From positions 22,125,449 through 22,189,448 of the forward strand of contig NC_079491.1 in NCBI RefSeq assembly GCF_020520425.1: a stretch of DNA of 64,000 bases, in the 5' to 3' direction. Positions 7,597-42,107 of this stretch are shown here, piece after piece. The notes below the pieces were generated by a model. It saw nothing but the letters and a program-made list of their open reading frames with translations, was not told where the DNA came from and did not search any database. A program made the translations under genes and the position numbers. The stretch is from Spinacia oleracea. Its lineage: Eukaryota; Streptophyta; Magnoliopsida; Caryophyllales; Amaranthaceae. How positions within the stretch are numbered: the stretch's first letter is position 1; every line of letters starts with the position of its first letter.

Positions 7597-8413
7597 ATTT
7601 AAAAATGCAAGATTCATCACTTGGTTGGTGTATATATTTTAGCTGAATATCAGACGACTTAGGCTCTATTTTATTCACCTTATTTTCACTTATTTCAGAA
7701 AAATAAATTCAAATAATTTTAGCTAAGATGAGATAAGATAAGTTCAAGTAAAATAAAGATTGACCAAGTATAATTTATAACTATTTTTTTTGGATAAATT
7801 CTAATAATATCAGATAAGTTTTTTTTTTTTAAAGTAAAATCAGGCGTATAAAATGCACCCTAAATGAATAAAGTCTAAGCATTTCCGAAGAGACGGGAAA
7901 TGGGAATTTCATCAATTAGAATTTAGAGCATTGTATGACATATTCAACAGATCGAATAGTAATATGTTTTTTGTGGTGCATGATTCTGACCTTTTAAATT
8001 TCAAGCCGAGTTCCAACAAAGAAATACGCATGCATGTATATATCTTCAAAACGTGTCAAGTAGTATACATCGATCTCTACCAATGTTTATGTTTAGTAAA
8101 CAAAAACATTAACATATGCAACATCATTTCGTCACCATGTTTGTATTTGATTAATTACTTCTCCAACATCTTCTAATGTCTAATGATTAATTAATTACTC
8201 CGTAATCAGCTAATTGGTATTAATTAATCTTTAATGACAAAATCTATTGCATTATCTTGTAGTATACGCACCTGGCTTTGGCATTTTCATTAGACGACTA
8301 TGCCAACCCAAACCGACCTATATTTTAATTAATTAGTTGACTAATTAAGCAAGGCCATGACATTAACTAATTAATTACATAAAACACCGTTTCTTAGTGT
8401 TATTTCTGTCACA
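7597..8413. other. Upstream region of the zinc-finger gene
   Basis: AT-rich intergenic DNA with scattered 'attaatt' runs. It presumably holds the promoter of the gene at 8464. No clear TATA box position or other gene could be fixed. Confidence 0.35.
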
Positions 8414-8473
8414 ATGCCTTCATTCTTCTTATTCTTATTCTTCTTCTTGTGTTTAATTTGGGAATGGAGTTAA
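8414..8473 (+). promoter_or_regulatory. Upstream ORF overlapping the zinc-finger start codon
   Basis: A 19-codon frame ([19 protein letters not shown]) opens 50 nt before the main ATG in another frame and ends 10 nt inside the coding region. If the transcript starts upstream of 8414, ribosomes using it would bypass the main start. The context 'acaatgc' is moderate. Its regulatory role is an inference. Confidence 0.35.
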
Positions 8474-8970
8474 GACTTCAACAACACGAAACAAAGTCCG
8501 GTAAATTCAACGAGCAGCAAACATCATCGCCGAGCACCACCACTACAGAAGATCAAGAGGCGGCCGCAGTTTTATACAGTGATGAGTATTATGTAAGGTC
8601 ATATACATGTAACTTTTGCAAGAAAGGGTTCTCTAATGCACAAGCACTAGGTGGACACATGAACATCCATCGAAGAGACCGGGCCAAGCTTCGTGATGAA
8701 TTATCGACTGATGATTATTCTCCTACGCACTTGGATTTATCTACGAGTAAAACTAGGAGTAGTCGATTGTATGTGAAAAAAGAAAGTAGAACAAAAGATG
8801 ATATTTGGGTTGGGAATGGGAACAAACACGAGGCCCTTGCTTTATTTGTTGATAGTTCGTCGTCGTCGAGAAAGGCCGGAAGTAGTAGCTCAAGAGTAGT
8901 AACTGTAAGCAAGGATGATTCTGGTTTAGACCTTGAACTTCGACTAGGGCGTGCTAAATCTCATTACTAA
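8464..8970 (+). CDS. Single C2H2 zinc-finger transcriptional repressor (SUPERMAN/TAC1-like, EAR motif)
   Basis: An intact single exon encodes 168 residues. One plant-type C2H2 finger spans about residues 47-71 (Cys49, Cys52, His65, His69) and contains the invariant QALGGH core, in the form [17 protein letters not shown], followed by [11 protein letters not shown], which is closest to TAC1/SUPERMAN-clade proteins. The C-terminus carries LDLELRL (155-161), a canonical EAR repression motif that recruits TOPLESS-type co-repressors. Serine-rich low-complexity tracts lie between. I use the first ATG (8464); the frame is open a few codons further upstream but has no earlier ATG. Family members are nuclear, intronless regulators of floral organ boundaries, hormone response or telomerase activation; which role applies here cannot be read from sequence. 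Two opposed CACTA MITEs lie 0.9 kb upstream and 1.3 kb downstream. Confidence 0.93.
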
Positions 8971-10314: not shown

Positions 10315-10603
10315 CACTACAAGAATTTGTATCTTTAACGACAACCTAATTACGACGGGTCACAAATCCCGTCGCAAAAGCCTTTTACGACGGGGCTAAC
10401 AACCAAACATTGACGGGAATAACCGTCGCAAATGTCTTTTACGACGGGTTTACGACGGTTTACGACGGATTTACGACGGGATTTCTATTAACGACGGGCC
10501 CATTTTATGACGGGTTCGCGACAGGAAATCCCGTCGTTAATCAACGATTATTAGCCTTTCGCGACGGAATTTCCCGTCGTTAATAGTACAATTTTTTGTA
10601 GTG
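10315..10603. mobile_element. Short CACTA element (MITE), copy 2, inverted relative to copy 1
   Basis: Starts CACTACAAGAATTTG and ends TTTTTTGTAGTG with a 3-bp duplication AAA (10312-10314, 10604-10606). Its interior is the reverse complement of the element at 7315-7593, with 'cgacggg' subterminal repeats. Non-coding. Confidence 0.9.
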
Positions 10604-10616
10604 AAAGTATTCGTGA

Positions 10617-13600
10617 CACTACAACAAATCGGACCAAAGAGGGCGAAAAAAGTCGCCCTTTTGATCAAAATATCGTCCTTTTAAACTTTAAGGGCGACAT
10701 AAAAATCGCCCTTAAATCGCCCTGTTAGGTTCGTCCTATTAGCCTTCGAAGGCAACACTAGTTTTTCGCCCTTTTTGATCAAAACCAAAGAGGGCAAATG
10801 TTTTTCGCCTTCTTTGGTCGAAAACAAGGAAAGAAAACGTTATCTCGCCCTCCTTGAATATATTTCGCCCTCTAAAATAGCTTTAATAGGGCAATTTGTT
10901 TTGCCTTTTTTGTTCAAAACCAAACAGGACAACTTGCTAATGTCGCCCTCTTTGTTCAATTTTTTATTTTTAAAAAAACAAATCTGGTTGAGACAAAAAC
11001 TCAGCTAAGTAACTATATAAATATGGCAACAAGCTTATCACCAACCATACAAAGGTAAATGAAAGTATAACAAATAAAAAATAACTATATAAAGACCACA
11101 GTGGATAATAGCACCAAAGGTAACATCAATTCGCAGTTAGGCCAGTTACTTCATAATATTTGGCCTTTGGTGAGTTTTACATGACCTAAATCAACAAGCT
11201 ACACAATTCCTTTTCGTACTATATCATCACCAGAATAGAAATAAGAGCACTAGCAAGGACACTTCGAGTAAGGACTACCATATGCATTTCTTCGTTTGTT
11301 TTCACAACCTAAGCTTATTCTTGTGCTTACACCTGTTATTGAATTCGTTCCACTTGCATACTTGCAAAGAGCCTGTCCATCACAGATGAAACTTAACAAC
11401 CTTCAATACCATAAACAGGTAATTAATGTATGCAAACGGGTAATAATGTAGCTGTGAAATCAAGTTTTACCAGTTTCTGGGGATAGTCAAGAACAGCATC
11501 ACTAAAATCAGCACCTTGAATAAGAGCACCAGTAAGGACACTTCGAGTAAGGACTGATCTTATAAGAACAACATTAGTAAGATTTGCTTTATTTAAGACA
11601 TGAAATTTGAGGATAACATGCTTGAGTATTAAAGCAACAAGCCTTTTCCTTACCAAAACTAATCTCTAATCAATGAAACTGAGAACTGGATGTCCAATAA
11701 TTCACAAGATTTGCTTATATAATCAACAATATTTCTGAAACAGAACAATCTGACTAAATAAACTAGCACCTGGAAATCATAAGTAAGAGTGTAAAACAGT
11801 AACTTACCATACGATCCATCAGCGTATCACTAAAATCAGCACCTGGAATTGGTAGAGTTACATCAGTTTATCAAAATCCATCAACTAGTAATGTAATGAA
11901 GTAGTAATGCAGGCATATATACAAGAGAAATCGGCTTTGTAAGCAACAGCTTTCTCAAGGTATGCACCATTGAATGTTGAACCACTGAAATCTGATTCCC
12001 TCATATCTGCTAATGTGAAATTTGCCCTTCTGCAAAGTTAACAGTATAACACCATCTTATGTTACACGAATGATGAAAAGCTCCAATTTTTTCAACATTA
12101 CATCAACGAAACACATTTATCCATTATAAATAGTAATGATCGATAATAGTGTAATTTGAACTAGTAATGTAATGGTAGTTCATATATACAGAATTTGTGA
12201 AACAGTAAGATTAAATTTTTACCTGAAATTTTCATTGACATGAACAGCTTTCCTGCATCCAACCAAAAAGAAGAGAGAAGATCCAAATCAAAATTAAAAC
12301 AACTCAGAAATTGTTTAATAAACAGTAATTAAACAATGGAAGAAAGGCAGACTTGAAATCAGCAGAACCATATTGAGCAGCAGAGCCAATCCCGAATTCG
12401 CCTCGCATTTCAGCTTCAAACTTATTCAAATAAACAACAGTCTTATTTCGTTTAACATTGCCTAGATCTAGTGGCTTCAATCTTTAGATCTTGAACCTAA
12501 CAATTAGGTAATCTGGGTTTGGAAAAGGAAAACTTATGATTTTGCACCCAAAAAGTGTAAAGCTATTGTAGCTAGTTGATTATTTTGTACTTTAAAGTGT
12601 GTTGTCAGAGTAGTGTGATGTCTGGGATTCCTTCACAACAACACTTCCAGTCAACCTCCTTTCCTGTCATTTTCTATTGACTATCAAGGCTCCAATACAG
12701 AGTCTTGTTGATCAACTTCAATTACAATAACTAGTAATGTAAGCCTTCAATTAAATTTACATGTAACAGCTATCAATACAAATCAGGATGATAATTATGA
12801 GCATGCAACAGATCTCTACGCGAAGCAAAGACTGCAAACGAAACTTGATTAACAGGTATCTTGAATCTTACTTTTGGTACTTGGTAGGATAAATTTCAGT
12901 GGCACCAACAATATTCAACATATATAGGATTTCATTATGTTGAGAAGCTTAGTAGAGTACATTCACCTAATTTTATCAACTGTAAACATCTAAGGCTACT
13001 ATTTGGATTAGAAAAGCCTGTTCAAACTAAAATCAGACTTATATCATCCAAAACAATCATAATTAAATCTGCTAAAAGTTCATAATCAAATATCCATCAA
13101 CAAAATTCAGATAATCTCAATAAAAAAGAGCCAAATCGTCCATATTACAACAACAAAAACGCAATAAAACAGAGAGTTGGGCAAATAGTGATGAACTAGA
13201 AAAAAAAATCAAAATCAATATGACAATAGTAATTTGCTTGTACATCTCCTAATTCGTCACTTAATTAGGTCCCAAATTCAAATACCAGGCCACAAAAACA
13301 AAAAAAATCGCAAAGAGAAGAAGAAGTTGAGCAAATACGATACCAGGCGAACTCCAGAGGAGCTTCAGATATGAGAAAATACATGCTATTGGACCGAATT
13401 TCAGGCGAACTCAAGCAAATTTCAGCGAACTCAACCAACTTTCATACGAACTCAACCAAATTTCAACCAAAACACATAAAATTAGGGTTAGCGAAATTGA
13501 AGACGGAGAGAGAAACTAAACTGGAGATTTAGGGGAGAGAAAGGGAGATAGAGAAGTTAAATTGAAAATTTAGGGAAGGAGAAAGCTAAAATAAAGATTG

Positions 13601-13914
13601 GGAGGGGTTTTAATTTTGGTATTCTTGAAAGAGAAATTGGGGACGATGGAAGAAATCTTCTATTCTCTGGTTCCCAAGGTCTGAAGTTTAAGGAGTTTGA
13701 CATTTTTTTATTAAATTGATCAAAGAGGGCGAAATTTACAAGTCGCCCTTCTTATTATTGTTAAAGAAGACAAAATCCAATTTTCGCCCTCTTTGTTATT
13801 ATCAAGGGAGGCGATGTACATTTGCCCTGTTTGATTTGTTCTAATAGGACGATTTTTCAGTTGTCCTTCATTTTACAAAAAAAATCGCCCTCCTTGATAC
13901 TGATTCTTGTAGTG
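10617..13914. mobile_element. Non-autonomous CACTA element carrying host gene exons
   Basis: The ends CACTACAACAAATC and GATTCTTGTAGTG are flanked by a 3-bp duplication TGA (10614-10616, 13915-13917). Subterminal arrays of 'agggcga' and 'tcgccct' (10635-10960, 13725-13900) are typical of CACTA elements. No transposase frame was seen, so movement would need a related autonomous element. The interior holds intron-bearing exons of a thylakoid lumen pentapeptide-repeat gene, listed separately, and a pyrimidine-rich leader-like stretch near 13480-13640 on the minus strand. Confidence 0.88.
11242..12470 (-). pseudogene. Captured fragment of a thylakoid lumenal 15-kDa pentapeptide-repeat protein gene (At2g44920-like)
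   Basis: Six exons read on the minus strand: about 12470-12353 (EAEMRGEFGIGSAAQYGSAD), 12252-12223 (KAVHVNENF), 12029-11923 (ADMRESDFSGSTFNGAYLEK), 11842-11808 (ADFSDTLMDRM), about 11596-11471 (NLTNVVLIRSVLTRSVLTGA) and 11372-11276 (ALCKYASGTN, SLGCENKRRNAYGSP). The order and phases match the Arabidopsis lumenal protein; A(D/N)xxx pentapeptides form a beta-helix. Most borders keep GT-AG, so capture was from genomic DNA, not cDNA. The chloroplast transit exon was not found, the acceptor of the fifth block is unclear, and the far end is joined to a duplicated scrap (11242-11276). It is therefore very probably non-functional, though transcription is possible. Confidence 0.88.
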
Positions 13915-13917
13915 TGA

Positions 13918-21476: not shown

Positions 21477-24300
21477 ACCTCTGTTCTTTAAGGTTCTTTA
21501 CACATACTATTTAACCATTAATGTATTCAATTTCGTATCTGAAAAATTATGAAAATACAAGCCAATGTTAATCTAACAAGATTTTACCTGATAACGTTTG
21601 ATATATAGAATAGTGAGAATTTACAGTTGAAGTTTTCATATACTTTTTTTTTTTTTTGATAACAACAGCCAAGAGGCCTTAAGCTTCATTAGAGGCAAGA
21701 CAAAATTCCGCAGCGATTACATCCTCTATAACTTCTGGACCACACCCAACCCATACCCTAGTAGAGTAATCAAATGGGTTTGTGTGAGCCATGATATGAG
21801 CAGCAACATTGGCTTCTCTAAACACATGCTTAAAGGCAACACAATCAAAAGCACTTACTAAATTAATAATCTCCCTCAATACAACTCCCAGGTACGAGCC
21901 ATCCATAGCCTTGGTCTTCAATTTGTTTATGACAAGCAGATTATCGCTCTCTACATCCACCGTTTTCGTATTACATTGAAGAGCGATCTTCAAGCCTAGT
22001 GCAATAGCCTTAGCCTCTGCAACATCAACCGGTCAAACTCCCTTCACTTGAGAGCTCGCTGCTCTAACTACCATTCCATCATGATCCCGAATAACCACTC
22101 CAAGACCCACACCCATTCCATCGGACACCGCAGCGTCGACATTTATCTTCAAGGTACCATATAAGGGTGGACACCATACAGCAACTACACGTTCATTGTC
22201 AACACCATGAGGAGTATGATGACACTCCCTTGCTTCCTTATAGGCACCCAAAATATTCAATGCAGCAGTAGCAACATCACAAGTGGGTCGATCCTCACCA
22301 CCTAGACGCACTTTATTGCGCTCGTACCATATAAACCAAGCCACCATTGCAGCCTCCTCTACTATTACCCTGCTTTCAGTCCGCATAACCCATGCATACC
22401 AATCAGCAATACTCACAAAAGGCACCCACTCTACGAGATTATGCAGGCCTGCATCTTCCCAAACACCAGATACAAAGGGGCACCGAAGGAGCGCATGTAC
22501 TTCAGTTTCTTCCTCCCTCCCACATCTGGGACAAAGCTCTCCTATACTAGCAATTCTCTTATGAAGACCCACACAAGTTGGGAGGGCAAAACTACACATT
22601 CTCCATATAAAAGATCTCACTTTAGGAGGGATATGGATCCTCCAAATTTTCTTCCAAAGATCAGATACTACAGAAGAGCTTGGTTCACCATTTAATGAGC
22701 TTTTGTAGAAGTTAATAAAATGGTAACCTGATTTTACAGAATATTGGCCATTTGTGGTATAATACCAAGCATAAATGTCATCTAAAGCCATAGAGAAAAG
22801 AGGAATAGAAAGTACCTCTTCGGCTTCAAAGGGTAGGAAGGTATTTCGGACCACATCCTCTCGCCATGTATGGTACAAAGGATCAATTAGTTGCTCAACT
22901 CTCTCAATTTCACAACCTTGAGGTCTCGGAGATATGACTCGAAAGGATGGTTGCCTACTCAACCAGGGATCACTCCAAACATAAATTGACTTTCCATCTC
23001 CAACTACCCACCTGCATCCTTTCTCAAGGACCCAGCGATCCACATCCCCATATGCTATGCCAAATGTAGCTCGGACGGCTCCCTATTTGAGAGCTCATAA
23101 AATCAGTATGAGGGAAGTAACGAGCCTTAAGAACTCTTGCAGCCAGCAGCTCTGGATTTTGTAAGATTCTCCATCCCTGTTTGGCTAGCATTGCCTCGTT
23201 AAAATCAGTAACCCTCCGAAATCCCATACCTCCATTCTCCTTTGACTTGCACATTTTATCCCAAGAAACCCAGTGGATTTTCCACTCCTCTCCCTTGCAA
23301 CCCCAGCAGAATCTCGCCATCATTTTTTGAATGTCATAACAAAGACCCACTGGTAGTTTGAACAAACTCATCAAATAGGTAGGAACCGCTTGGACTACAG
23401 CCTTTAAGAGGATTTCTCTACCTGCAAAGGATAAAGTTTGTTGTTTCCACCCTTTAATCTTTTTCCACACTCGTTCTTTCAAGGACGCAAAGGCTTGAGA
23501 CTTTGATCTACCTATCCAGGTTGGCATACCTAGATATTTCCCATGGAGGTCAACAAGTTGTACACCGAGACTAACAGCAAGCTCTCCCTTCCTTTCCTGA
23601 GTTAAATTAGGACTCATAGTAATTTCGGACTTTCCGAAGTTAATTTTTTGGCCTGACGCCTCCTCATAACAAGCTAACACTCTTTTTATTGCTTGCACAT
23701 CCCTGTCATCCGCCCTACAGAAAATAATACTATCATCTGCAAATAAGAGGTGAGATATCTCTGGAGCATTACGAAACACTTTAATTCCTTGCAAAGATTT
23801 TCTTTGAACTTCCAGCTGCAGTAAGTTAGAAAACACTTCAGCACAAATAATGAAGAGATAGGGGGATATGGGATCTCCCTGCCTCAATCCCCGCTCAGGA
23901 GAAAAAAACTCTGATGGCTCTCCATTAACCACCACTGCATGAGACACAGTAGTAATACAACACATTACCATACGAACCCACTCAGCATGAAAACCCATCT
24001 TCAACATAACATTTTCCAAGAAAACCCACTCTACTCTGTCGTATGCCTTACTCATGTCAAGTTTTACCGCCATACTCCCTTTGCGGCCCAAACAAGCGCT
24101 ATTCATATAGTGGAAGGTCTCAAAGGCAACAAGAGTATTATCCGTGATTAGCCTGCCGGGTGTGAAAGCACTCTGGCTATGAGATATAATATCATCGAGT
24201 AAAGGTTTCAACCTATTAGCAAGCATTTTAGATGCAACTTTATAAATCACATTACACAAGCTTATAGGTCGGTATTCAGTCATTGAAGGAACAGAGGTAG
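21477..24300. mobile_element. Stowaway-like MITE split by a LINE
   Basis: The left remnant (21477-21644) begins 'acctctgttctttaaggttc' next to TA (21475-21476). The right remnant ends 'ggaacagaggtag' followed by TA (24301-24302). The left half matches the MITE at 56571-57323 ('cctgataac' and 'tagtgaaaattcacggtc'-like segments). The LINE at 21645-24285 lies between; about 20 bp of MITE sequence seem missing at the right junction. Confidence 0.6.
21645..24285 (-). mobile_element. L1-type LINE, 5'-truncated and degraded ORF2
   Basis: On the minus strand, reverse transcriptase starts at 24283 (TEYRPISLCNVIYKVASKML; GLRQGDPISPYLF; FADDSIIF) and runs to 23024. An overlapping frame (23043-22033) carries the zf-RVT region (CPRCGREEETEVHALLRCP) and the first part of RNase H (INVDAAVSDGMG). 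A third frame (21993-21679) completes RNase H. ORF2 is thus broken at least twice. The endonuclease and ORF1 are absent through 5' truncation; the first ATG is probably contributed by flanking DNA. A poly(A) tail appears as the T run at 21645-21657. Target-site duplication could not be resolved. Confidence 0.9.
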
Positions 24301-24302
24301 TA

Positions 24303-24775
24303 AGTTTTAGTGAAAATACTGTAACTTTTTTTTTGAAGTATGCAGAAAACTGAAAAAGAATAAAAATGATAAATAATCAGGATTCAAGACTCTTTGACGG
24401 ATAATCGTACTCTTTCAGGAAAATACTTTAATCGGTAGTCTAAAATATTGTTCGTAATAAAGAAAAAAGGAGTAAGAATATAAATTATGGGAGAAATATA
24501 GAATATAGACTTATAGTTGCATGTTTCTTTGAAATTTTTAGAGGTTTAATTAATTCCTTCGCATATAATAGCATAATGTCCCATAAGCGTTGAGAATGAT
24601 GTTCTTTTTTTTTTTTTTTTTATTAGTGTCTTTGTGTGCTATTTGTTCAGTGACAATTATTGTATTAAAACGAATCTCCTTCACAGTATGAAAAACTCGT
24701 TTTTTCCATTTTAAAAGGAAATCGCGTCAAGTTATTGTTGCAATTTGGACTAGGTTTTGAGTTTTATTGTTATGA
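24303..24775. other. Intergenic, nothing identified
   Basis: AT-rich DNA with an 18-nt-scale T run near 24605-24620. No gene or transposon ends were seen. Confidence 0.35.
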
Positions 24776-25789: not shown

Positions 25790-26208
25790 TTGAATTAGAA
25801 AACAAATTATAATTTTTTTTACCCTTATTTGTAAATTCTTTGAAACCACCCCTGCGTATAGCGGTCTCATATAGTAGGCCTCCTCATGAATCACTAACGC
25901 CTCACAATTGAATATTAAACAGAATTAACAAAGCTGGTAATCCTCCTAAAATATTGGTGAAAAGATATGCCAAAAAAATCGAAAACTAAAAATAGATTTG
26001 TTGACATCAATCTTCAACATCCTGATGGAGTCAATGTTAGTTATCTTTTTTGGGTTCAATATCCCACAGCCTGTCAAACAACTTACATGAAACTCCTCCT
26101 AAAATGCAACAACCCAAATATATTCCATTTCTCTCTCTTTCATTATTCTGCAATCATCATCTTCTAACATTAATTCCACCATTTTTATCCCTATAACGGT
26201 TGTTAGCT
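25790..26208. promoter_or_regulatory. Upstream region of the PSI-like gene
   Basis: AT-rich DNA between a MITE and the coding start, presumably promoter and leader. A small frame at 25967-26167 has no recognisable content. No TATA box could be assigned with confidence. Confidence 0.3.
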
Positions 26209-27711
26209 ATGGTGAGCAGTATGGGTAACATACATTGGCTATCAGAGCGTCACCGACGCACCAAATCAAACCCGCCTCACGACGAAAGCAACATCATCAT
26301 CATCAACAACAACAACAACAACAACAACAACCATAGTCGATGGATGCTTTGTCCTGAGAAGCCGGATATTTTAGGGATCCTGGCTTTTGACACGGCTAAA
26401 TCAATGTCACGTATAATATCTCTTTATAAATCGTTATCAGACAATGAAATGTTCCATCTCAGAAAAGAAGTCATCCAAGGGCGAGGGATCGCGTTCCTGA
26501 CATCCAACGACGAGGGCTTCCTTTTAACTCTAGCATGTGCAGAGCGGCTGGAGGATTTAGACAGAGCTGCTAACGCCGTGTCGCGGCTCGGGCAGAGGTG
26601 TTCCGATTATGGTTTATTACGGTTTGTGCAGGTGTATAAGGATCTTAAGAACGGACATCTTAATATACATAAGCTCAATAATTACGGGTCTAAGGAAATG
26701 GAGAAATCTATCGAGAAAATGGAGAAGATGACATCATTGACAAGTGAATTATACGTAGAGCTTGAAGAATTGACACATATGGAGACCTCTGAAAGGAGAT
26801 TACATGATTGGAAGAAGATTAATAATAATAATACAGACCAAACCGCAAACTACGATCTCTTTGATAATAAGATTTCCAATCAAAGGAAGCTTGTTCGTCA
26901 TTTAAAAGATGTTTCATTATGGAATTATTCTTATGATAAGGTTGTCGGAATCATGGCGAAAATGGTTTGTGTTCTTTACGCACGGATTTGTACCCTTTTC
27001 CGGCCTTATATTTCGATATTACAACAAAATAAAACAATTCACAAGAGGTTGTTTGTAAGTGAGCAAGTACCAAAAACAACAATGTCGGGTCCGATTCCAT
27101 GCTCGAAAAAAGTACCTCTAGTGAGATTCTTAAGCAGGGAAAGCACTGTATTCATTAGGGAAGACGTAAAGTTACGTCTTGCAGTAAGGCATTATAGTAG
27201 TAACTTGGTAAACCACAGTAATAAGGTGTTTCAGGCAGCCCCGGCGTCCACCGTAGGCGGTTCAGGGTTGGCGGCTAGGTACGCGAGCGTGATATTGTTG
27301 GCTGAAAGGTATTTCTATTCGGAATCACTAATAGGAGACCAAGCAAGACAAAGCATGTACAATATGTTGTCATATAGGTTAAAGATGTACGTGAGGTCAA
27401 AACTTAGGGTTGCATGGAGGGAGATTGAGAATGATATGTGTGACGGTGATGAATTGGCAGAAGGGTGGAGGAAGGCGGTGGCTGATATGCTTGATTGGCT
27501 TGTACCGGTGGCGCATAACACGGTTTTGTGGCAAGGTGAGAGGAATATGGAGAAGCAAAGGTTTGATTCTAAGCCAACTGTGCTTTTGTTACAAACTTTG
27601 CATTATGCTGATTTAGAGAAAACCGAAACTACCCTTGCTGAGGTTTTGGTTGGGTTAAGTTGTATATATTTGTATGAGAATCGTAGGATTTCTTGTTTGG
27701 ATATTTATTGA
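26209..27711 (+). CDS. PSI-like protein with DUF3475 and DUF668 domains
   Basis: A single exon of 500 residues. After a polar N-terminus with an Asn run (about 33-41, from aac repeats), residues about 53-110 (ILAFDTAKSMSRIISLYKSL, then HLRKEVIQGRGIAFLTSND) match DUF3475. Residues about 349-435 (VGGSGLAARYASVILLAERY, then MYNMLSYRLKMYVRSKLR) match DUF668. This pairing defines the plant PSK SIMULATOR and related proteins, linked to growth and membrane-associated phytosulfokine signalling; the biochemical activity is unknown. I take the first in-frame ATG (26209). An alternative ATG at 26221 would give MGNIHWL, with Gly2 available for N-myristoylation as reported for PSI proteins. Poly(A)-like 'aataaaatg' lies near 27915. 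The frame is intact. Confidence 0.9.
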   Translation: MVSSMGNIHWLSERHRRTKSNPPHDESNIIIINNNNNNNNNHSRWMLCPEKPDILGILAFDTAKSMSRIISLYKSLSDNEMFHLRKEVIQGRGIAFLTSNDEGFLLTLACAERLEDLDRAANAVSRLGQRCSDYGLLRFVQVYKDLKNGHLNIHKLNNYGSKEMEKSIEKMEKMTSLTSELYVELEELTHMETSERRLHDWKKINNNNTDQTANYDLFDNKISNQRKLVRHLKDVSLWNYSYDKVVGIMAKMVCVLYARICTLFRPYISILQQNKTIHKRLFVSEQVPKTTMSGPIPCSKKVPLVRFLSRESTVFIREDVKLRLAVRHYSSNLVNHSNKVFQAAPASTVGGSGLAARYASVILLAERYFYSESLIGDQARQSMYNMLSYRLKMYVRSKLRVAWREIENDMCDGDELAEGWRKAVADMLDWLVPVAHNTVLWQGERNMEKQRFDSKPTVLLLQTLHYADLEKTETTLAEVLVGLSCIYLYENRRISCLDIY

Positions 27712-30862: not shown

Positions 30863-33374
30863 CTCCATAATAATTACGGAGTAATAATTAGATCAATATC
30901 ACTCAATGTCATGTGGCCAAAACTTTGTGTAATAATACTTCATCTTATTATAGGAGGTTTGTTATTATAGGAGGTTTGTTCTCATTCCACATCATCATAG
31001 TACAAATCTTCTTCCTATTTCCCAACAAAACCTTTCTTCAATAATAGATAAACCTATCAAATGATTTGTATGTGGGGCCAGTAATACATTATTACTTGGC
31101 TATTTTCTTCATTTATTTTGACAAGGGCCCACAAAAAAAATGCCAAGTGAAAATGAGTAACCGGTTTGTAAAAACAAACCTCAAACACAAACTTCCATTT
31201 GTAACCTCACTCGACAATAGCAAGGTTTATTAATGAACCTCAAAAAGATGAAACAAACCTCTACACAAACCCCTTATTATTATTATTATTAATGCCCTTA
31301 GAGTCTGTGTCCAATAGGTTATTGTGGCTAATTAATTTGCATTAAAAATATAAATGTGTATGGACATCCTCATTTTCAAGTTGACCACTAAGTAACAAAA
31401 AGTCATATTCGGAACCAACCCGAAATAAAAAAAAGATGAATAGAAGAAAAAGTCAAAACCATAACATAACCCAACAATAACCCAAATTAAAAAGTAATAT
31501 AATTTAAATATAACTCAAACCGATAAGACTCATAGAAAATCACGAACGAAAACGAAAGTGGCTTGAGCCTCCCAACCCAAGATAACTCGATTGCAAACAT
31601 TCGTATACCCGAAATCATAAAAAAGATCCGCTTTAACTCGTCCTAAATCTTAACCGGATCTATCCAACTCAGAAAACGAAATTGACTCGTTATAAGTCCA
31701 ATACGATACAGTCCGACCCACCACGAGTCAAGTGAAAATCGACTGAAAGACCCCAAATTGACCCCTCTAGCTGTTTGGGAACGGAGTGAATAGAAAGACA
31801 AAAGAAAATATGTAGAATGCGAAGTGAGAGGTACCTTAGAGTCTTAGACAAGGCATAATATTCTGCTCTCTATGCACTTGGTTAGACTCAACAATCAAAT
31901 ATCCTTTTTTCTAATTATTATTCGTGGCCAAAGAAAATACGATAACAAAAGAGAAGCTGCCAATGCGGTAAACTAAAATAAAAAATGCAAGTGTGCTGAG
32001 TTTTAATGGGATTTTGCTTTTCCATGCCATCACTATTCACGGGTGACGGCTACTTCTCCTTGCAATTTCGACCTCATAAATCATATACTAGAATATGTTG
32101 ACTCTTGTACACCTCACTAGTCAAACATTACAGATATTTTATAATTTTATCAAACAATTCTTCTAAACCAATAATGTTAACATGTACCCCCACTTACATT
32201 ATTGGCTTATTGCCTTCTAGCCTAGACTAGTTGGTTGTCGAATCGGATTAGGATTTTTGCCGTCGGATTAAGTTAGTTTTTTTTACCGGTGTCGTTCTAG
32301 TTCGACATGGGTTTTTAAGTTAAAATCGGTTATCAGTTATTATCTGACGTGGAGGGCCAAATTATAGCATATAGGTCATTTGTAATTACCAAAATTTTGG
32401 GTACATGTAAGTTGGGTGTCACTGTTTTAGCCTTCTAGAAGTAATGAGTCTATAAGAGTGAGGTAATACATAGGGATGTCATTGGGGGAAGGTTAAGTGG
32501 GAGATTCGTCCCGTATCCGCCCAAATCAGGTGGAATAGATGAAGGTTTGGTTGGTGATGGGACTGGGATGAGGATAAATCGTACCCATCATAGATAGTGG
32601 GCGGTTGTGGATTTTTAAGGTGTACCAGCACCATACCTACCTCGCCTAACCCACCTCGAAATTCTTTTTAGTTCTAAATATACTCCATATAATATGTTTT
32701 ATCTTATGCTCTTATTTTATGTAATAACTATGTAAAAATAATATCAGTAAATCGACAAGAAAACACTAGATAGATTTTATTTGTACTATTTTGTGATCGT
32801 GTTGTGTAGTACTGAAATTATAACTTGATAATACGAGGTGGATCTTGTATGGAGTAAAGTGGGTATGAATATTCAAGTGGGTGGTGAGGTGGCAGATGAT
32901 TTTAGTATGAATTTTGTACCCATCATGAGTAATTGGACTATAATATATATTGAATTTTAGTATTTTAGGGATGGAGATGTAGGATTTACATCCACATCTG
33001 CCCATTGGAATCCTTAATAAAACCAATACCGACTCAATCACTCAAATACAAAGTCCACAGGTCCCCCACTATTTCCTTTCCTTTTAGACTTAAAATTTAG
33101 TGTGCATTATTAGACGTCTAATTCCATTTTATTCTTGTTTGATGTCTATCCCCACTAATGTCAACCATTTTCTCTTTCTTCGTACCTTTATTAGACGTCA
33201 ATATTGGATACTCCACTAAATTTGACATAATTCTTCTCTTTTGATACCAATCACAAATTCCTCTTTTGCGGCGTAGTTTAAACTACAACTAATCCAATAA
33301 ACACTATCTACCTAATTCCATTCTCTTATTTCTCATTTTTTTTCCATCATAAAAATCTCAATCATTACAGAAAA
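30863..33374. other. Intergenic region and upstream region of the lectin receptor kinase gene
   Basis: AT-rich with no coding frame of interest. Around 30950-31290 'aggtttgtt' and 'aaacaaacct' motifs face each other and may mark an eroded MITE. 32460-32660 is a richer 'ggcggttgtggatttttaag' stretch of unknown nature. The promoter presumably lies in the last few hundred bases; no TATA box could be fixed. Confidence 0.35.
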
Positions 33375-35417
33375 ATGGTGAAAATTCTCAAACATTTGGG
33401 TATTTTCTGTATCCTAATGCTCATCGCAATCACATCCGCACAACAAACAGAATTCTTATACGATGATTTCAGTAAAGCGGGCAATACCATACTCTTAGAA
33501 GGCTCAGCTAAGCTCTTCAACCATGATAACATCATTCAACTAACCAACACCAGCAGCCGTATGATTGGCCACGCCTTCTACGCCACTCCAATCAAGTTCA
33601 AAAGCTCCCCAAACGGCACCGTTTCATCCTTCTCTACCGTCTTCACTTTGGGAACTGTACCAGAGTTCAAGACCCTCGGAGGTCACGGCATGGCCTTTGT
33701 CATTTCTCCCTCCAACAACCTCAACACCGCCCTCCCTAGCCAGTACCTCGGCCTCTTCAACGCCGCCAATATCGGAAACATAAGCGACCACGTCTTCGCC
33801 GTCGAATTCGACACCGTAAAGGATTTCGAGTTCCAAGATATTGATGACAATCATATCGGAATTAATCTTAACAGTTTGGTATCCAACTTCTCTGTTCCTG
33901 CCACTTATGTTATGGAGAATTCTACCAAACAAAATGTGTCCATGAAAGCTGGACATACGATTCAAAGTTGGGTTGATTACGATGCTACAAACAAACTCAT
34001 AAGTGTTACCATTTCACCTCTCCCTACGAAACCAAGAATTCCTCTAATCTCATACAAATACGACCTTTCTCAAATATTAGAACAAGAAATGTATGTTGGA
34101 TTTTCTGCTTCTACTGGGTTATTAGCGAGTTCGCATTATGTTCTTGGTTGGAGCTTTAACATGAGTGGTCCAGCTAAATCACTTTCTATGCCTCCACTCC
34201 CACATCCTCCAAGTACTTCTAGTAATAAACACAAGGCGACTGTGGCAATCGCTTCATCTATTTCCGTATCGGTTTTTATCTTCCTGGTTATCTGTGGTGT
34301 CATCTACATGGTCGTAAGGATAAGGGATCGGGAAATAATCGAAGATTGGGAGCTAACAGTGGGGCCTCATCGGTACCGGTACCACGAGCTCAGGGAAGCA
34401 ACAAGAGGGTTTCGAGAGAAGGAGCTACTTGGTAGAGGTGGGTTTGGAAGGGTATACAAAGGGTGTTTACAAAAATGTAACACCCAGATTGCAGTTAAGC
34501 GAATTAACCATGAATCCAAACAGGGATTGCCGGAATTTGTAGCGGAAATTGCTAGCATTGGTCGGCTTCGTCACCGGAATTTAGTCCAGCTGTTGGGGTG
34601 GGGTCGTCGGAGGGGTGACTTATTGCTTGTGTATGATTATATGCCGTATGGAAGTTTGGATAAATACTTGTTTGATCAAGATCGGGCAGGGTATATACTT
34701 AGCTGGGAACAGAGGTTTAGAATAGTAAAAGGTGTTGCCTCTGGGCTATTGTATTTACACGAAGGGTGGGAAAAAGTTGTGATTCATAGAGATATCAAGG
34801 CAAGCAATGTTTTACTAGATGGTGAGTTCAATGGACGGCTTGGTGATTTCGGGTTAGCAAGGTTGCACGATCATGGGGCGGACCTAGGCACGACTAGAGT
34901 GGTAGGCACATTGGGGTATCTAGCACCGGAATTGTCACGAACAGGACATGTAACAACTAGCTCAGACGTGTTCGCGTGCGGGGCACTTTTACTTGAGGTA
35001 GTATGTGGAAGGAGGCCTATTGAACCAAGGTTTACAAGTGAGGAGGAGTTAGTACTAGTTGATTGGGTTTGGTCAAAATGGAATCAAGGCAAGGTTATGG
35101 AAGTGATTGATCCTAAAATAAAGGGTAAACATGATGAGAAAGAAGTGTTAATGGTGTTGAAATTAGGATTGATGTGTTCGAGTGATGAGCCAAGGTATCG
35201 GCCGAGTATGAGGCAAGTAGTAAGGTACTTAGATGGAGAGATGGAGTTGCCGGAGGTGTTAAGAGCACCAAATCCAGATGATGAGAAAAGGGTTCTTAAA
35301 ACATCAGAGCCAAGGATTGAAGATTATGTTTACTCTTTTGGAACGTCTTCTTCTGGGGTTAGTTTGCAATCATACAGTACTGGTAGGGGTGCTAGTGTTA
35401 GTCCAAATACTATATGA
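33375..35417 (+). CDS. L-type lectin-domain receptor-like kinase (LecRK, clade IV-like)
   Basis: An intact single exon of 680 residues, usual for the intronless LecRK family. There is a signal peptide at 1-22, a legume-lectin ectodomain at about 25-265 (GHAFYATPIKF, GHGMAFVISPS, VFAVEFDT, DDNHIGINLNSL, MYVGFSASTG), a membrane span at about 288-314 and a kinase domain at about 348-625. The glycine loop is GRGGFGRV (353-360), the ATP lysine K375, the C-helix glutamate E391, HRD at 471-473 with the downstream KASN, and DFG at 491-493, so an active Ser/Thr kinase is predicted. The ectodomain and kinase wording (GFREKELLGRGGFG, VVGTLGYLAPE) is closest to Arabidopsis LecRK-IV members, plasma-membrane receptors tied to defence and pollen functions. 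A broken paralogous tail lies 8.5 kb downstream. Confidence 0.95.
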   Translation: MVKILKHLGIFCILMLIAITSAQQTEFLYDDFSKAGNTILLEGSAKLFNHDNIIQLTNTSSRMIGHAFYATPIKFKSSPNGTVSSFSTVFTLGTVPEFKTLGGHGMAFVISPSNNLNTALPSQYLGLFNAANIGNISDHVFAVEFDTVKDFEFQDIDDNHIGINLNSLVSNFSVPATYVMENSTKQNVSMKAGHTIQSWVDYDATNKLISVTISPLPTKPRIPLISYKYDLSQILEQEMYVGFSASTGLLASSHYVLGWSFNMSGPAKSLSMPPLPHPPSTSSNKHKATVAIASSISVSVFIFLVICGVIYMVVRIRDREIIEDWELTVGPHRYRYHELREATRGFREKELLGRGGFGRVYKGCLQKCNTQIAVKRINHESKQGLPEFVAEIASIGRLRHRNLVQLLGWGRRRGDLLLVYDYMPYGSLDKYLFDQDRAGYILSWEQRFRIVKGVASGLLYLHEGWEKVVIHRDIKASNVLLDGEFNGRLGDFGLARLHDHGADLGTTRVVGTLGYLAPELSRTGHVTTSSDVFACGALLLEVVCGRRPIEPRFTSEEELVLVDWVWSKWNQGKVMEVIDPKIKGKHDEKEVLMVLKLGLMCSSDEPRYRPSMRQVVRYLDGEMELPEVLRAPNPDDEKRVLKTSEPRIEDYVYSFGTSSSGVSLQSYSTGRGASVSPNTI

Positions 35418-36211: not shown

Positions 36212-37771
36212 GATAAACCATTAATTACGAAAATCTGGGTAGGGGGTGCCTGGCAAAATATTATATATGAAAATATAGATACCTTGTGTTTTCAATGTGG
36301 GAAAATTGGTCATACTAAACAGTACTGTAATAATAATAATAATGATGGAACTCAGGTTACCAGTCCGATCAACAATATTGATAATAGTGATATGGATAAA
36401 TCTAGTACTGAATCAAGCCAAACTCAAAAGAATAATAATGTAGTAGCCATAAATTCTCAAACTGATACAATTAGATTTAATCAGGATTATGGGCCATGGA
36501 CGTTAGTTACCAATAGGAAGGGGAGCAATAATTATAAACACTCAGTATATAATTCTAGAGGAAGAAATACCGGTTTTACTCTTAACAACTCTAGAATTAA
36601 TGACTATGGAAAAAATAAAAATGGGTCTTTTAATGGCTCGAGAAATGCTTCGACCACTGTTCCACCGCATGGAAAAGGAACCAACCCTTTACATTCTACC
36701 CAATTGAAGGAAGGATTACAATCTATTAAACATCAGCAACAGAGAAATAATAATGAGGAAAATTTTTTGCCTACCTCTCCAAGAAAAGATACTGCAAAAA
36801 ATGAAGAGTGTATTCAACACGTGGAGCAAGTTTCAAGGCAGATGGTTGCCTCTCCATTGGCGAATGAAGATTTAATCTCTTCAACTCCTCCAGCTGATGT
36901 TCATTTAAATGAACCCTCAACCATAATTTCCACTACCAATCTCTCTCCTTCTTTTCCTTCCTCTTCACATAAATCCCCTACCTCTTCTTCATCTCACTGT
37001 TCTTCTAATAGTCAGGAATATCCTTCTCCGTTAGCTCCCAATGGATCCAAACAATCCTCAGAAATCGCCATGCACGAGTCCTTCTCAATCCCAGAAATCG
37101 ATATGCATGGAGTTGAACCAACTTCCGATAACAACTTATCAGCGCCGGCCACCGGAATTCAGGAAAAGAAAAGATTTAGGGGAAATCCCAGTCATGATTC
37201 CGGAAGATCCGTGGGAAATGAATCCACCAAGAACTCGGAATCTTTTTCCAACCTCACCGGGGAATGCATGCACGGTAAGGAGGGTGCAACCAGCAACTTT
37301 GGAGGAACTCAGGACCAGTCTCACAACCCTAAACTCATTGAAGTATCAGGGGGAACCATATGTTCCTCGCAGATTCAGCAACAAACCGAATCCTCTCTCT
37401 CCAATTTCAGTGGGACCAAGACAATTTTCAACCAAGAAGAGTTGGGAATTCAGCCCGGGAAATCGGGGGCCGGTTACGCAAAGACAACCTATGCAACAGC
37501 TTCCAAGAGGGGTGCACATCATACCCTTACATTCAGAAACACAAGGTCAAGACATGGGGCATCAAGATCGCCTTATAGCCATGTATGTGACGACGGAGGA
37601 GGTGGTGGGATTGCAAATCAAAGGGAAATTCTGGAACCCACCCCTGGCCCACAGGCAGATCTTCACCTACTTGACTCCAGTGAGATTGGAGGATGTTCAT
37701 CTAACAGGAGCTCAGCAGTTTTGGAAGGATTGGGAAAGTTACTTGATTCGTCAGACATGCGATCCCAATAG
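36212..37771 (+). CDS. LINE ORF1 (5'-truncated), zinc-knuckle nucleic-acid-binding protein
   Basis: Open for 519 LINE-derived codons. It retains one CCHC zinc knuckle (CFQCGKIGHTKQYC; C-x2-C-x4-H-x4-C) about 25 residues from the truncation point. Long Asn/Ser-rich, low-complexity sequence follows to the stop. In plant L1 elements ORF1 coats the RNA and usually starts with a DUF4283-type domain; that part is gone. By chance the target DNA supplies an in-frame ATG at 36194, so a protein beginning MIGYKC could be made. The last 731 nt overlap the upstream extension of the ORF2 frame. Confidence 0.85.
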   Translation, partial: DKPLITKIWVGGAWQNIIYENIDTLCFQCGKIGHTKQYCNNNNNDGTQVTSPINNIDNSDMDKSSTESSQTQKNNNVVAINSQTDTIRFNQDYGPWTLVTNRKGSNNYKHSVYNSRGRNTGFTLNNSRINDYGKNKNGSFNGSRNASTTVPPHGKGTNPLHSTQLKEGLQSIKHQQQRNNNEENFLPTSPRKDTAKNEECIQHVEQVSRQMVASPLANEDLISSTPPADVHLNEPSTIISTTNLSPSFPSSSHKSPTSSSSHCSSNSQEYPSPLAPNGSKQSSEIAMHESFSIPEIDMHGVEPTSDNNLSAPATGIQEKKRFRGNPSHDSGRSVGNESTKNSESFSNLTGECMHGKEGATSNFGGTQDQSHNPKLIEVSGGTICSSQIQQQTESSLSNFSGTKTIFNQEELGIQPGKSGAGYAKTTYATASKRGAHHTLTFRNTRSRHGASRSPYSHVCDDGGGGGIANQREILEPTPGPQADLHLLDSSEIGGCSSNRSSAVLEGLGKLLDSSDMRSQ

Positions 37772-40700
37772 CCCAGTAAGGGTTAATACCGCTCTTATTA
37801 AACCAAATCCGCAAATGAAGGTTTGTATATGGAATGTTCGTGGAGCCAATAAGAATCTTTTTATGAATAATGCTAAAGAAATAATCGATACTCAGCATCC
37901 TGATATTTTCATTTTTTTGGAAACGAAGTCGGATGGAAGCCGAGCTAGGGAGGTGATGGAAGAGTTGAGGTTTCATGATTATAGGGTGGTAAGGCTAGTG
38001 CAAACGAGGGGGGGAATGTGGCTGTTCTGGAAAAAAACGGTTGATTTGGTCCTGTTTGATGCTGAGTATCATCATTTCCACTCTCTTTTCCATTTCAAAA
38101 ATTTGGGGAAAGAAGGCCTAATCACTGCGATGCATGCTCCAAGTACTTCATATGGAAAAAACCAATTTTGGGAACTAATGCGATCTGACTTACCTCCAAA
38201 TACTTCTCCATGGCTGGTCCTTGGTGACATGAATGAAGTCACATCGCAGGCAGAAAAAATGGGGGGTAGACCAGTTCGTAATTCTCAGGGTCGCAACCTC
38301 ATAAATTTCATGGATGATGCTGGACTCATGGATATTGGTTACAATGGCTGCAAATTCACTTGGACAAATGCTAGGGATGGTTTGGATTTGATTCAGGAAC
38401 GTTTGGACCGAGCTCTTGCTAATTCGCCATGGATGGAAAATTTCCTGCATACTAAGGTTCATCATCTTCCTCGTATTCATTCTGATCATTCTCCTGTTTT
38501 AATTACTTTGGATAATTGTTTTAATTCAGGGCCTTTTCCTTTTAGATGTAAAGAAATTTGGCTTTCGCATCCGGATTTCTCCAACTATTTTGTTAATAAC
38601 TGGATTTCAAATGACAATAATTTTTTAAAGGGTAGGACTAGTTTTTTAGAAACAATTAAACACTGGAATTATAATATTTTTGGGAACCTGAAAAAACAAA
38701 AGGCTAATCTTATGGCTAGAATTAACGGAATTCAGATTGCTCTAGGCCACCGATATTCTCGTTATTTGGTTAATTTGGAGGCCGATTTAATTGGAAAGCT
38801 TAATGATATTTTTAAGAAAGAAAGAATTATTTGGGCTCAGAAAGCGGGGCTTGATTGGAGGAGATTTGGGGATTACAATACTAAGTATTTCCACACAATG
38901 GCCAAGATTAAGAAATCTAAAGGCAAAATTCTAACCCTAAAAAATGACCTAGATGAGTGGATTACAGACCAACAGGAGTTAAAAAATATGGCAACCTTTT
39001 ATTTTCAACGTCTGTTCACTACTAATCAAGATCACAGTAATTTAGGTTGCCCTTCGAAAAGTGTCTTAAGTTTAGATGAGGATGAGATTAGGCTATTATC
39101 TGCTTCAGTTACTATGGATGAGGTGCACCATAACCTGTTTTCTATGGCTCCTATCAAAGCTCCAGGACCAGATGGTATTCAACCAATTTTTTTCCAAAGA
39201 CACTGGGAGGATATTGGGTGTTCGATTTATGATTTCTGTGTATCTTGTTTTAGAAATGGAGAAATTCCAAAGGATATTAATAACTCCTATTTAGCCTTAA
39301 TTCCAAAAATTCCAAACCCTTCTGTTATTACTGAATTTCGACCAATTGGGCTATGTAATACTATTTATAAATTAATCACTAAGATCGTTTCTTCAAGGCT
39401 AAAGCCTGTTTTAAAACGTATCATTAGCCCCCTTCAATCTAGTTTCATCAAAGGAAGGGGTATTGAAGATAATGTAATTCTAGTAAAAGAAATGGCTCAT
39501 CATTTCCATAAGGCAAGGAAGAAAAACAAAATAATGGCTTTAAAGTTGGATATCACAAAAGCCTATGATAGTTTAGAATGGGGATTTATTAAAGACACCC
39601 TCAATTATTTTGATTTTCCAGTTAATCTTATCAATCTCATAATGTCTTGCATCACTAGTCCTTCAATTTCCATTCTTTGGAATGGAGAAATTTGTGACTC
39701 TTTTGATCCATCTAGAGGTATTAGACAAGGTGATCCGCTTTCCTCTTATATTTTTGTTTTGTGTTTAGATAGATTGTCGAATATGATTGAAAACTTGGTG
39801 CAGCAAGGTGACTGGAAGCCAATTGCTTTGACTAGGAATATTAAAATTTCTCATGTTTTTTATGCGGATGACGTTTTCTTATTTAGTGTAGCTTCAAAGG
39901 ATAATATGCATACTATTATGAATACTTTAACTCATTTTGGGAATTTATCGGGCCTAAAATTAAGTTTCACTAAATCTACTTTAATCTTCCCATTGTCTTT
40001 AAATCATAACATTAGGAAGGATATAGCAGGTTCTTATGGCTTAAGAATCTCAACCTCGTTTGGAAAATATCTAGGAGTGGATATTAGACCTCATAAACTA
40101 AAAATCAATAATTATAGAGGTCTTCTCGATAAAACAATGGATAGAATAAGGGTTTGGCAAGCAAAGCTTTTAAATATGGCGGGTCGTTGTACTCTTATTA
40201 AGGCGGTGCTAAACTCTTTCCCTCTTTATGCTATGCAAACCAATATTTTGCCCACTTCGATTTCATATGTCCTTGAAAAATGTTGTAGAAAATTTTTATG
40301 GAATAAAGTTGATAGTAATAGATATATGTCAAGAATTGCTTGGAATAAGGTAACAAGTCCAATTAAGGTTGGCGGTTTAGGAATAAGAAGGCTTAAGGAG
40401 TGGAACCTAGCATTCATGGCAAAATTAGGGTGGACCATGCTTACTAAACCTGACAAACTTTGGGTTAGAGTTATGACAGAAAAGTATTTAAAAAATTCAA
40501 ATCTTTTAAATTGCTCCCCAAATTATAATCAATCTCCTATTTGGAGAGATATTCTCAAAGGCAACCCTATTCTCCAACAAGGATTAATGATAGGGATAGG
40601 AAACGGTAGGAACACTTCAATCTGGTTTCATCATTGGATAGGTGAGGCTCCTCTTTATACTTTAGAAGAGATTAAAATTCCTGATTTAAAGGCTCATTGG

Positions 40701-42107
40701 TTTGTGGATAGAATCATCAAGGATGGGAAATGGCATTTAGACGATATCCAACATATCATTCCTTCTTATATCAAGGACTTAATTTTGGCTTACCCCCTTT
40801 CTGGTAATATGGAGGAGGAGGATTTTATAAGATGGCGATTCTCAAAGCATGGAGAGTTCGAAATTAAATCAGCTTATCATCTTCAACTAAATAAACATAC
40901 TCTCTCAACATCTTCAGATATCTCTTGGTCTTCTATTTGGAAAATAAAATGCCCTTTTAAATATAAGATGCTCCTTTGGAATTGTTGCCATGAAATTCTC
41001 CCTGTAGCTGCTTCTCTAAATCAAAAAATCAATAACATTAGTCCAATATGTTCTAGATGTCATCATCATAACGAGGATCACATTCATCTGTTTAGGGACT
41101 GTCCTCAATCTAGTATTTTATGGTCGTTCATATTTCAAAGACTGTGGAATAAAGAAAATTTTCAATTTAATATCTTCTATAATACAAACTGGAAAGATTG
41201 GATTCAATTTAATCTTCAAAACTCAAAGGCATGGAAAGTGGTTTTCACTATAGCCATATGGCATATTTGGATTTCAAGAAATAAAACAGTGTTTGATCTG
41301 AGTATGAAAAGTGCTTTCTCTATTTACAATTCCTTTTTTGTGGATTGGAAGTCAACTAACTTAGCTTTGCAGGATAAGAATAATAAGGCTGAGCAGATGG
41401 AATTAAAGAAGCATTGGATGCCACCTGTGGAAGGTTATATGAAATTAAACATAGATGGTGCATGGAAATCAGGAAATCTAGCAGGAGGTGGAGGAGTTTT
41501 TCGAAGGCATACTGGTTCCTGGTTTGTGGGATTCTCCACGAAATATAAAGTTCAATCACCTCTGGCTGCTGAGCTTTTTGCATTGAGGGAGGGTCTGAGA
41601 ATTGCAAAAAACTTCATGATCGATAAGCTGGAAGTAGAAACAGATGCTCTCAACCTCAAGATACTGTTGGGAAAGGTCAAGGATGAACCGCATCATGAGC
41701 TGGGTCCTGTGCTTAGGGAGGTAACACAGTTATTAGGGGACAGATGGTTAGTCAAATTCTCCCATATCCCTAAAGCTTATAACAGGGTGGCTCATGCTTT
41801 AGCAGCTCATTCTTTGATCATGATGGTTCAGCATAAGCTTCATTACATCATTCCATCTTGTGCTAAAGATGAGTATGAAGGGGATTTCGAGAAGGCAAAT
41901 CCAATCTATGTGGCAGAAATGAGAAGAAATGCGCGAGAACAAGTTCGTGCTATGTGTAATGCAAAAAGGAAGAATGCAGATATCATCAACAAGATTGGAG
42001 AAAGTTCAACAGCTTCTAAGATCGTTTTTGGGTCCATGGTTTCTAGCATCCAAAAGGTCACTCAAGACAATACTTTGACAAAGGAAGGAGTCAGCATGCA
42101 TGGATAA
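37041..42107 (+). CDS. LINE ORF2: endonuclease, reverse transcriptase, RNase H
   Basis: Uninterrupted for 1688 codons from ATG 37041; a second plausible start is ATG 37815 (MKVCIWNVRGANKN), 43 nt after ORF1 stops, where the apurinic-type endonuclease begins (residue 259). Endonuclease landmarks are LVLGDMNEV and SDHSPVLI. Reverse transcriptase shows FRPIGLCNTIYK, RGIRQGDPLSSYIF and the catalytic FYADD at about 940-944. A zf-RVT zinc-binding segment (CSRCHHHNEDHIHLFRDCP) lies near 1337. A C-terminal RNase H domain begins LNIDGAW (Asp about 1472) with AAELFALREGL and VETDAL. All catalytic signatures are present. The 258-residue N-terminal extension overlapping ORF1 is unusual. Confidence 0.92.
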   Translation: MDPNNPQKSPCTSPSQSQKSICMELNQLPITTYQRRPPEFRKRKDLGEIPVMIPEDPWEMNPPRTRNLFPTSPGNACTVRRVQPATLEELRTSLTTLNSLKYQGEPYVPRRFSNKPNPLSPISVGPRQFSTKKSWEFSPGNRGPVTQRQPMQQLPRGVHIIPLHSETQGQDMGHQDRLIAMYVTTEEVVGLQIKGKFWNPPLAHRQIFTYLTPVRLEDVHLTGAQQFWKDWESYLIRQTCDPNSPVRVNTALIKPNPQMKVCIWNVRGANKNLFMNNAKEIIDTQHPDIFIFLETKSDGSRAREVMEELRFHDYRVVRLVQTRGGMWLFWKKTVDLVLFDAEYHHFHSLFHFKNLGKEGLITAMHAPSTSYGKNQFWELMRSDLPPNTSPWLVLGDMNEVTSQAEKMGGRPVRNSQGRNLINFMDDAGLMDIGYNGCKFTWTNARDGLDLIQERLDRALANSPWMENFLHTKVHHLPRIHSDHSPVLITLDNCFNSGPFPFRCKEIWLSHPDFSNYFVNNWISNDNNFLKGRTSFLETIKHWNYNIFGNLKKQKANLMARINGIQIALGHRYSRYLVNLEADLIGKLNDIFKKERIIWAQKAGLDWRRFGDYNTKYFHTMAKIKKSKGKILTLKNDLDEWITDQQELKNMATFYFQRLFTTNQDHSNLGCPSKSVLSLDEDEIRLLSASVTMDEVHHNLFSMAPIKAPGPDGIQPIFFQRHWEDIGCSIYDFCVSCFRNGEIPKDINNSYLALIPKIPNPSVITEFRPIGLCNTIYKLITKIVSSRLKPVLKRIISPLQSSFIKGRGIEDNVILVKEMAHHFHKARKKNKIMALKLDITKAYDSLEWGFIKDTLNYFDFPVNLINLIMSCITSPSISILWNGEICDSFDPSRGIRQGDPLSSYIFVLCLDRLSNMIENLVQQGDWKPIALTRNIKISHVFYADDVFLFSVASKDNMHTIMNTLTHFGNLSGLKLSFTKSTLIFPLSLNHNIRKDIAGSYGLRISTSFGKYLGVDIRPHKLKINNYRGLLDKTMDRIRVWQAKLLNMAGRCTLIKAVLNSFPLYAMQTNILPTSISYVLEKCCRKFLWNKVDSNRYMSRIAWNKVTSPIKVGGLGIRRLKEWNLAFMAKLGWTMLTKPDKLWVRVMTEKYLKNSNLLNCSPNYNQSPIWRDILKGNPILQQGLMIGIGNGRNTSIWFHHWIGEAPLYTLEEIKIPDLKAHWFVDRIIKDGKWHLDDIQHIIPSYIKDLILAYPLSGNMEEEDFIRWRFSKHGEFEIKSAYHLQLNKHTLSTSSDISWSSIWKIKCPFKYKMLLWNCCHEILPVAASLNQKINNISPICSRCHHHNEDHIHLFRDCPQSSILWSFIFQRLWNKENFQFNIFYNTNWKDWIQFNLQNSKAWKVVFTIAIWHIWISRNKTVFDLSMKSAFSIYNSFFVDWKSTNLALQDKNNKAEQMELKKHWMPPVEGYMKLNIDGAWKSGNLAGGGGVFRRHTGSWFVGFSTKYKVQSPLAAELFALREGLRIAKNFMIDKLEVETDALNLKILLGKVKDEPHHELGPVLREVTQLLGDRWLVKFSHIPKAYNRVAHALAAHSLIMMVQHKLHYIIPSCAKDEYEGDFEKANPIYVAEMRRNAREQVRAMCNAKRKNADIINKIGESSTASKIVFGSMVSSIQKVTQDNTLTKEGVSMHG

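Follow-up and report, generated by a model that had tools for sequence, protein, structure and literature searches.

The window analyzed here, a stretch of 64,000 nucleotides of the Spinacia oleracea genome (C5:22125449-22189448), contains a mobile Pack-CACTA element that carries a decayed gene fragment as its passenger (probability ~0.9). We give even odds to the further reading that transposons are the sole record in this assembly of a second functional lumen pentapeptide gene, either a lost paralogue or a gene of another lineage, that was captured while functional. Gene capture by CACTA elements is well known, and one more case changes little on its own; the useful part is the test of descent. 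The added interest lies in a donor that is probably missing and in one cargo common to two element lineages. Features of the element and its cargo are collected in Table 1.

Table 1. Element and cargo features, in window coordinates.
Feature	Position	Strand	Basis or remark
Non-autonomous CACTA (Pack-CACTA-like) element, 3,298 bp	10617..13914	+	Ends, TSD and full-length copies
Target site duplication (TSD) TGA, left	10614..10616		
TSD TGA, right	13915..13917		
Terminal inverted repeat CACTACAA, left	10617..10624	+	
Terminal inverted repeat TTGTAGTG, right	13907..13914	-	
Left subterminal array, TCGCCCT/AGGGCGA	10640..10949		9 exact
Right subterminal array, TCGCCCT/AGGGCGA	13726..13891		4 exact
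37-nt exon 6 duplicate fused to exon 7	11240..11276	-	7 bases (AGTCCTT) common at the joint
Captured exon 7, 5' part only	11270..11373	-	Alignment to resident gene
Captured exon 6	11471..11599	-	Acceptor AT, not AG, in all three full-length copies
Captured exon 5	11808..11842	-	Alignment to resident gene
Captured exon 4	11923..12029	-	Last base G>T (G147C) in each full-length copy
Captured exon 3	12223..12252	-	Alignment to resident gene
Captured exon 2, 3' part, from the presumed mature N-terminus (after ALA); transit peptide absent	12353..12431	-	Alignment to resident gene
Block X, second captured block	12467..12846		Also in the other cargo lineage
70-nt piece	12848..12917		100% and 99% identical to two C4 places
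Right arm	12924..13914		93-94% identical to cargo-free loci L011 and L012

The element has the inverted ends starting with CACTA, the 3-bp TSD and the subterminal arrays at both ends by which CACTA (En/Spm) transposons are recognized. Its inverted repeat comprises eight perfect bases and is imperfect beyond them. Across the element, TCGCCCT/AGGGCGA appears 13 times, always no farther than 333 bases from the left end or 190 bases from the right end, compared with zero or one occurrence per shuffle in 20 mononucleotide shuffles. The terminal 30 bases matched the 894.2-Mb assembly (242 contigs) at 167 places for the left pattern (degenerate, ≤2 mismatches) and 58 for the right pattern (≤3 mismatches), and the reversed controls of both patterns had no match in the genome. 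An earlier note on this DNA had claimed CACTA ends and a TGA target duplication, both of which are present, and had called the element non-autonomous, which is borne out: no frame of ≥150 aa overlaps 10617-13914, and the longest frame overlapping 11100-13700 measures 87 aa.

A genome search with the whole element returned at least 58 matching pieces (40 of 290 candidates were scored, and copy numbers are lower bounds). Two further full-length copies lie at C2:86121037-86124333 (98.8% identity, TSD AAT/AAT) and C6:79789236-79792551 (98.3%, CGT/CGT), and the flanks of both are unlike those of the window copy. Since the three copies differ in flanks and TSDs, the element has moved. The divergence K was 0.0104 for both the window-C2 and the window-C6 pair, and 0.0018 between the C2 and C6 copies. 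Exact 3-bp duplications bordered seven of the nine family elements checked (TGA, AAT, CGT, CAT, TAC, TTC, and AAT); among the other two, L016 was one base off (AAT/AGT) and L012 had none. The earlier conjecture that relatives may spread the element is supported by these three full-length copies and by four loci of a second lineage described below. With no internal transposase, host coding DNA inside, and more than one copy, the element shows three features of Pack-CACTA.

Larger elements with the same ends are the likely source of mobility, judged from sequence and position: 785-aa PF02992 transposase frames lie, as placed by their coordinates, within the same-ended elements C2:11678355-11688504 and C6:52106983-52119400. 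From these shared ends and coordinates, their transposase would move the window element in trans. The PF02992 family search scored 150 of 1,375 candidates. Relative to the element ends, the PF02992 frames are on the same strand as the cargo. Two other autonomous candidates, the long same-ended elements C1:34230194-34242468 and C4:161270874-161280347, were dropped, as the parts examined hold copia-like frames by eye. Two further same-ended elements, L061 (C6:54689937-54696605, 6.7 kb) and L062 (C4:144567883-144573427, 5.5 kb), have internal minus-strand frames in common, which may encode a second protein of the family. Two L061 frames had no Pfam match at E 0.001, and the joined frames had only a match below the cut-off (E 0.49); the label "TnpA-bearing" was dropped for both elements for want of a significant Pfam match.

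The cargo of the window element comprises the 3' part of exon 2, exons 3-6, and the 5' part of exon 7, together with the intervening introns. These exons align to an intact resident gene of seven exons and 264 codons at C6:150.97 Mb (L013 5566 to 3881, minus strand). The six minus-strand exons with introns that the earlier note had described are thereby matched to a real gene, and its proposal of a genomic host piece lacking the transit-peptide exon holds for the element in its present form, with introns present and exon 1 absent. The resident gene was the only intact homologue found (12 of 12 DNA and 28 of 28 protein candidates scored), and it alone has exon 1, which was not found elsewhere in the assembly. 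Beyond this gene and the element copies, the searches gave four 45-nt matches to intron 6 and one weak match (E 0.157).

With 51.8 bits, the solved At2g44920 chain (3N90) ranked below a cyanobacterial pentapeptide protein at 70.3 bits. The predicted mature mass of the resident protein is 20.35 kDa; the lumen protein table of PMC8346976 lists 20.4 kDa for TL20.3 (At1g12250), 15.0 kDa for TL15 (At2g44920), and 18.8 kDa for TL17. By eye, the resident protein contains no phosphopeptide that the passages seen of that paper give for TL15 or TL17. By listed mass and by the lower score of TL15, the cargo is a thylakoid-lumen pentapeptide gene of predicted TL20.3 type. The identity with At2g44920 (TL15) was rejected on the same scores and masses. 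Of the earlier assignment, the lumen-type pentapeptide protein stands, whereas the At2g44920 type does not.

With exon 1 absent, exons 2 and 7 partial, and the exon 6 acceptor lost, the fragment lacks the makings of a functional TL20.3 gene; a real host gene at 10617-13914 was rejected on the missing exon 1, the broken acceptor, and the fused exon 7. All seven cargo loci found are damaged, and the cargo is an ordinary decayed Pack-CACTA passenger. Decay after capture would have comprised the loss of a splice acceptor, a frameshift, an exon deletion, and amino-acid changes, and the cargo would now ride as a passenger without a working product. A rearrangement is visible at exon 7. The base underlying D179V in the element's exon 6 recurs in the 37-base exon 6 duplicate and is absent from the resident gene and the second lineage; because both carry it, the element's own exon 6 was probably the template of the duplicate, which would then postdate capture. 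Neither this duplicate nor the lost acceptor figures in the earlier note. Within block X, 198 nt are 92% identical to DNA at C4:161.64 Mb between Vta1_C and Methyltransf_7 frames, and the cargo was therefore stitched from at least two sources. The 12848-12917 piece resembles its C4 matches more closely than the remaining cargo resembles its own sources.

Seven cargo-bearing element loci were found: the window, C2, and C6 copies, and a second lineage consisting of L014 (C4), L015 and L016 (both C1), and a 2,467-bp deletion form on C5. L014 aligns with the 3' part of L015 only. In the second lineage (L014, L015, and L016), exon 2 has lost a single base and exon 4 a stretch of 60 bases. Aligned with L015 (gap columns excluded), the window element shows 30 mismatches in 917 bases of the cargo (~3%) and 18 in 344 of block X, against 38 in 195 at the left end and, within the right arm, 22 in 204 and, outermost, 65 in 353. 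The outer ends of the two cargo lineages thus differ by 18-20% and the cargo by ~3%, which means one cargo within outer ends of different subfamilies. The distance between the ends, and the unlike bases between exon 2 and block X in the two lineages, would also be expected had each lineage taken the same gene independently. We regard this as extremely unlikely, because block X is common to both, on the exon 2 side and in the same order and orientation, and because both lineages share 77 intron differences from the resident gene.

The L015 junction bears on how a single cargo was acquired. There, the cargo adjoins a 151-base stretch that matches the interior of L062 at 94.7% identity; the two overlap by 4 bases where they meet, and the last 145-146 bases of this stretch occur at 11 further places in the genome besides the cargo loci (91-97%). 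Such a junction suggests entry of the cargo into the interior of a larger element via gap repair. Most likely, template switching would have filled a gap inside a larger relative with a copy of the cargo, a step that the anatomy of the junctions somewhat favors, and the cargo would then have come to sit in two element lineages. Capture may instead have run through closely spaced neighboring insertions, a model for Arabidopsis Pack-CACTA elements described in the parts consulted of PMC8903248 and PMC13317346; internal gap repair is the better fit to the junctions of the second lineage. That the same cargo sits in lineages whose ends have diverged bears on the mode of capture.

The obvious candidate for the donor is the resident gene at C6:150.97 Mb. 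The earlier note had proposed a comparison of introns as a check, and this comparison proved informative: where both lineages agree with each other against the resident gene, 77 of 574 intron sites differ and only 5 of 310 exon sites (Fisher P 2.6e-10). These five ancestral exon differences, between the cargo ancestor and the resident gene, are all synonymous. Changes after the split of the lineages were distributed differently, with 13 among 574 intron sites and 16 among 328 sites in exons and splice signals, and include 12 non-synonymous ones. A simple capture from the resident gene followed by neutral decay, with no other gene involved, has in its favor that no other intact homologue turned up in the assembly and that the exon identity of this gene with the cargo is high. 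Under direct donation and neutral drift, counting changes that predate the split or fall in parts kept by the first lineage only, 21.4 amino-acid changes would be expected (introns without a local-identity filter) and one was observed (P <0.00001). With introns of ≥80% local identity, the expectation falls to 9.3 (P 0.0037). The single observed difference, V220I, is in a part kept by the first lineage only, and across the shared sites alone between 4.9 (strict introns) and 12.8 changes were expected and none observed (P 0.018 and 0.00002, respectively). Intron counts leave out sites near gaps in every version of the test, and the range of P (<0.00001 to 0.018), obtained from the resident gene and the two cargo lineages, depends on intron filtering and on the sites used. 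On these numbers we consider simple capture unlikely, and the earlier picture of a plain capture from an intact donor gene is probably wrong; the pattern of differences between cargo ancestor and resident gene fits a separate functional gene.

Since introns diverged before the split without a shared amino-acid change, and free drift followed, the resident gene is probably not the direct donor. Strict intron divergence (23 of 444) and synonymous differences (7 over 108 sites) both fit a functional gene that split from the resident gene before capture. Most likely, the direct donor would be a functional gene related to the resident one and not found in this assembly, a reading we hold to be fairly probable. 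A donor gene in an assembly gap would likewise go unseen. The same pattern, with no shared amino-acid change before the split and free change after it, is also predicted if the captured copy itself stayed functional under selection in an ancestral element, the losses of exon 1, exon 7, and splice sites coming only afterwards. That course of events appears very unlikely, as no locus besides the resident gene yielded exon 1 and all of the cargo loci found are damaged. A separate functional donor remains our preferred reading, and the closest intact gene does not have to be the donor, as the comparison of introns with amino acids before and after the spread of the cargo suggests. Should the donor truly have been lost, transposon cargo could act as an archive of vanished genes, and the fragment of a second lumen pentapeptide gene would, if this is true, be a datable fossil.

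The element resembles Pack-CACTA of Arabidopsis, rice, and maize, described in the consulted part of PMC8903248 as having CACTA ends and captured coding DNA, without a transposase, and with cargo from more than one locus. Beside that general description, it stands out by a six-exon cargo with introns, two lineages with diverged ends, and a donor that was not found. CACTA elements of Chenopodium, in the same order (Caryophyllales), also captured host gene fragments; those reported in the sections seen of PMC8978399 are short (80 to ~200 bp), lie near a transposase-associated domain, and are Neprosin and AP2 pieces. The soybean CACTA element Tgm-Express1 likewise carries several host gene fragments including introns (PMC1947982, in part); it lies within an intron of a gene, and spliced chimeric transcripts arise from it. 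Titles and abstract openings of the literature on spinach CACTA elements included none about this element, and CACTA has no occurrence in the main text of the spinach assembly paper (PMC8668906). At the level of literature listings, no case of CACTA-captured genes with purifying selection and paralogues appeared.

The documented chimeric transcripts of Tgm-Express1, and the sense that the cargo shares with the transposase of same-ended elements, would agree with a cargo that is expressed and working today, through chimeric transcripts or through small RNAs acting on the resident gene. We judge this to be rather improbable, given that none of the three full-length copies retains the exon 6 acceptor and that the changes since the split are mostly non-synonymous. 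A passenger without a working product remains the better description of the cargo.

Elsewhere in the window, LINE-like reverse-transcriptase frames (RVT_1, zf-RVT) occupy 22036-24376 (-) and 37035-42104 (+), and one of the two comprises 1,690 aa and also has an endonuclease domain. Further frames encode a C2H2 zinc finger (8398-8967), DUF668/DUF3475 (26197-27708), a legume lectin with a kinase (33282-35414), and a thaumatin domain (59126-59818). A ~289-bp MITE at 10315-10603, with ends CACTACAA.../TTGTAGTG and AAA on both sides, stops 13 bases before the element, and a relative (L013 6986-6707) sits ~1.1 kb upstream of the TL20.3-type resident gene.
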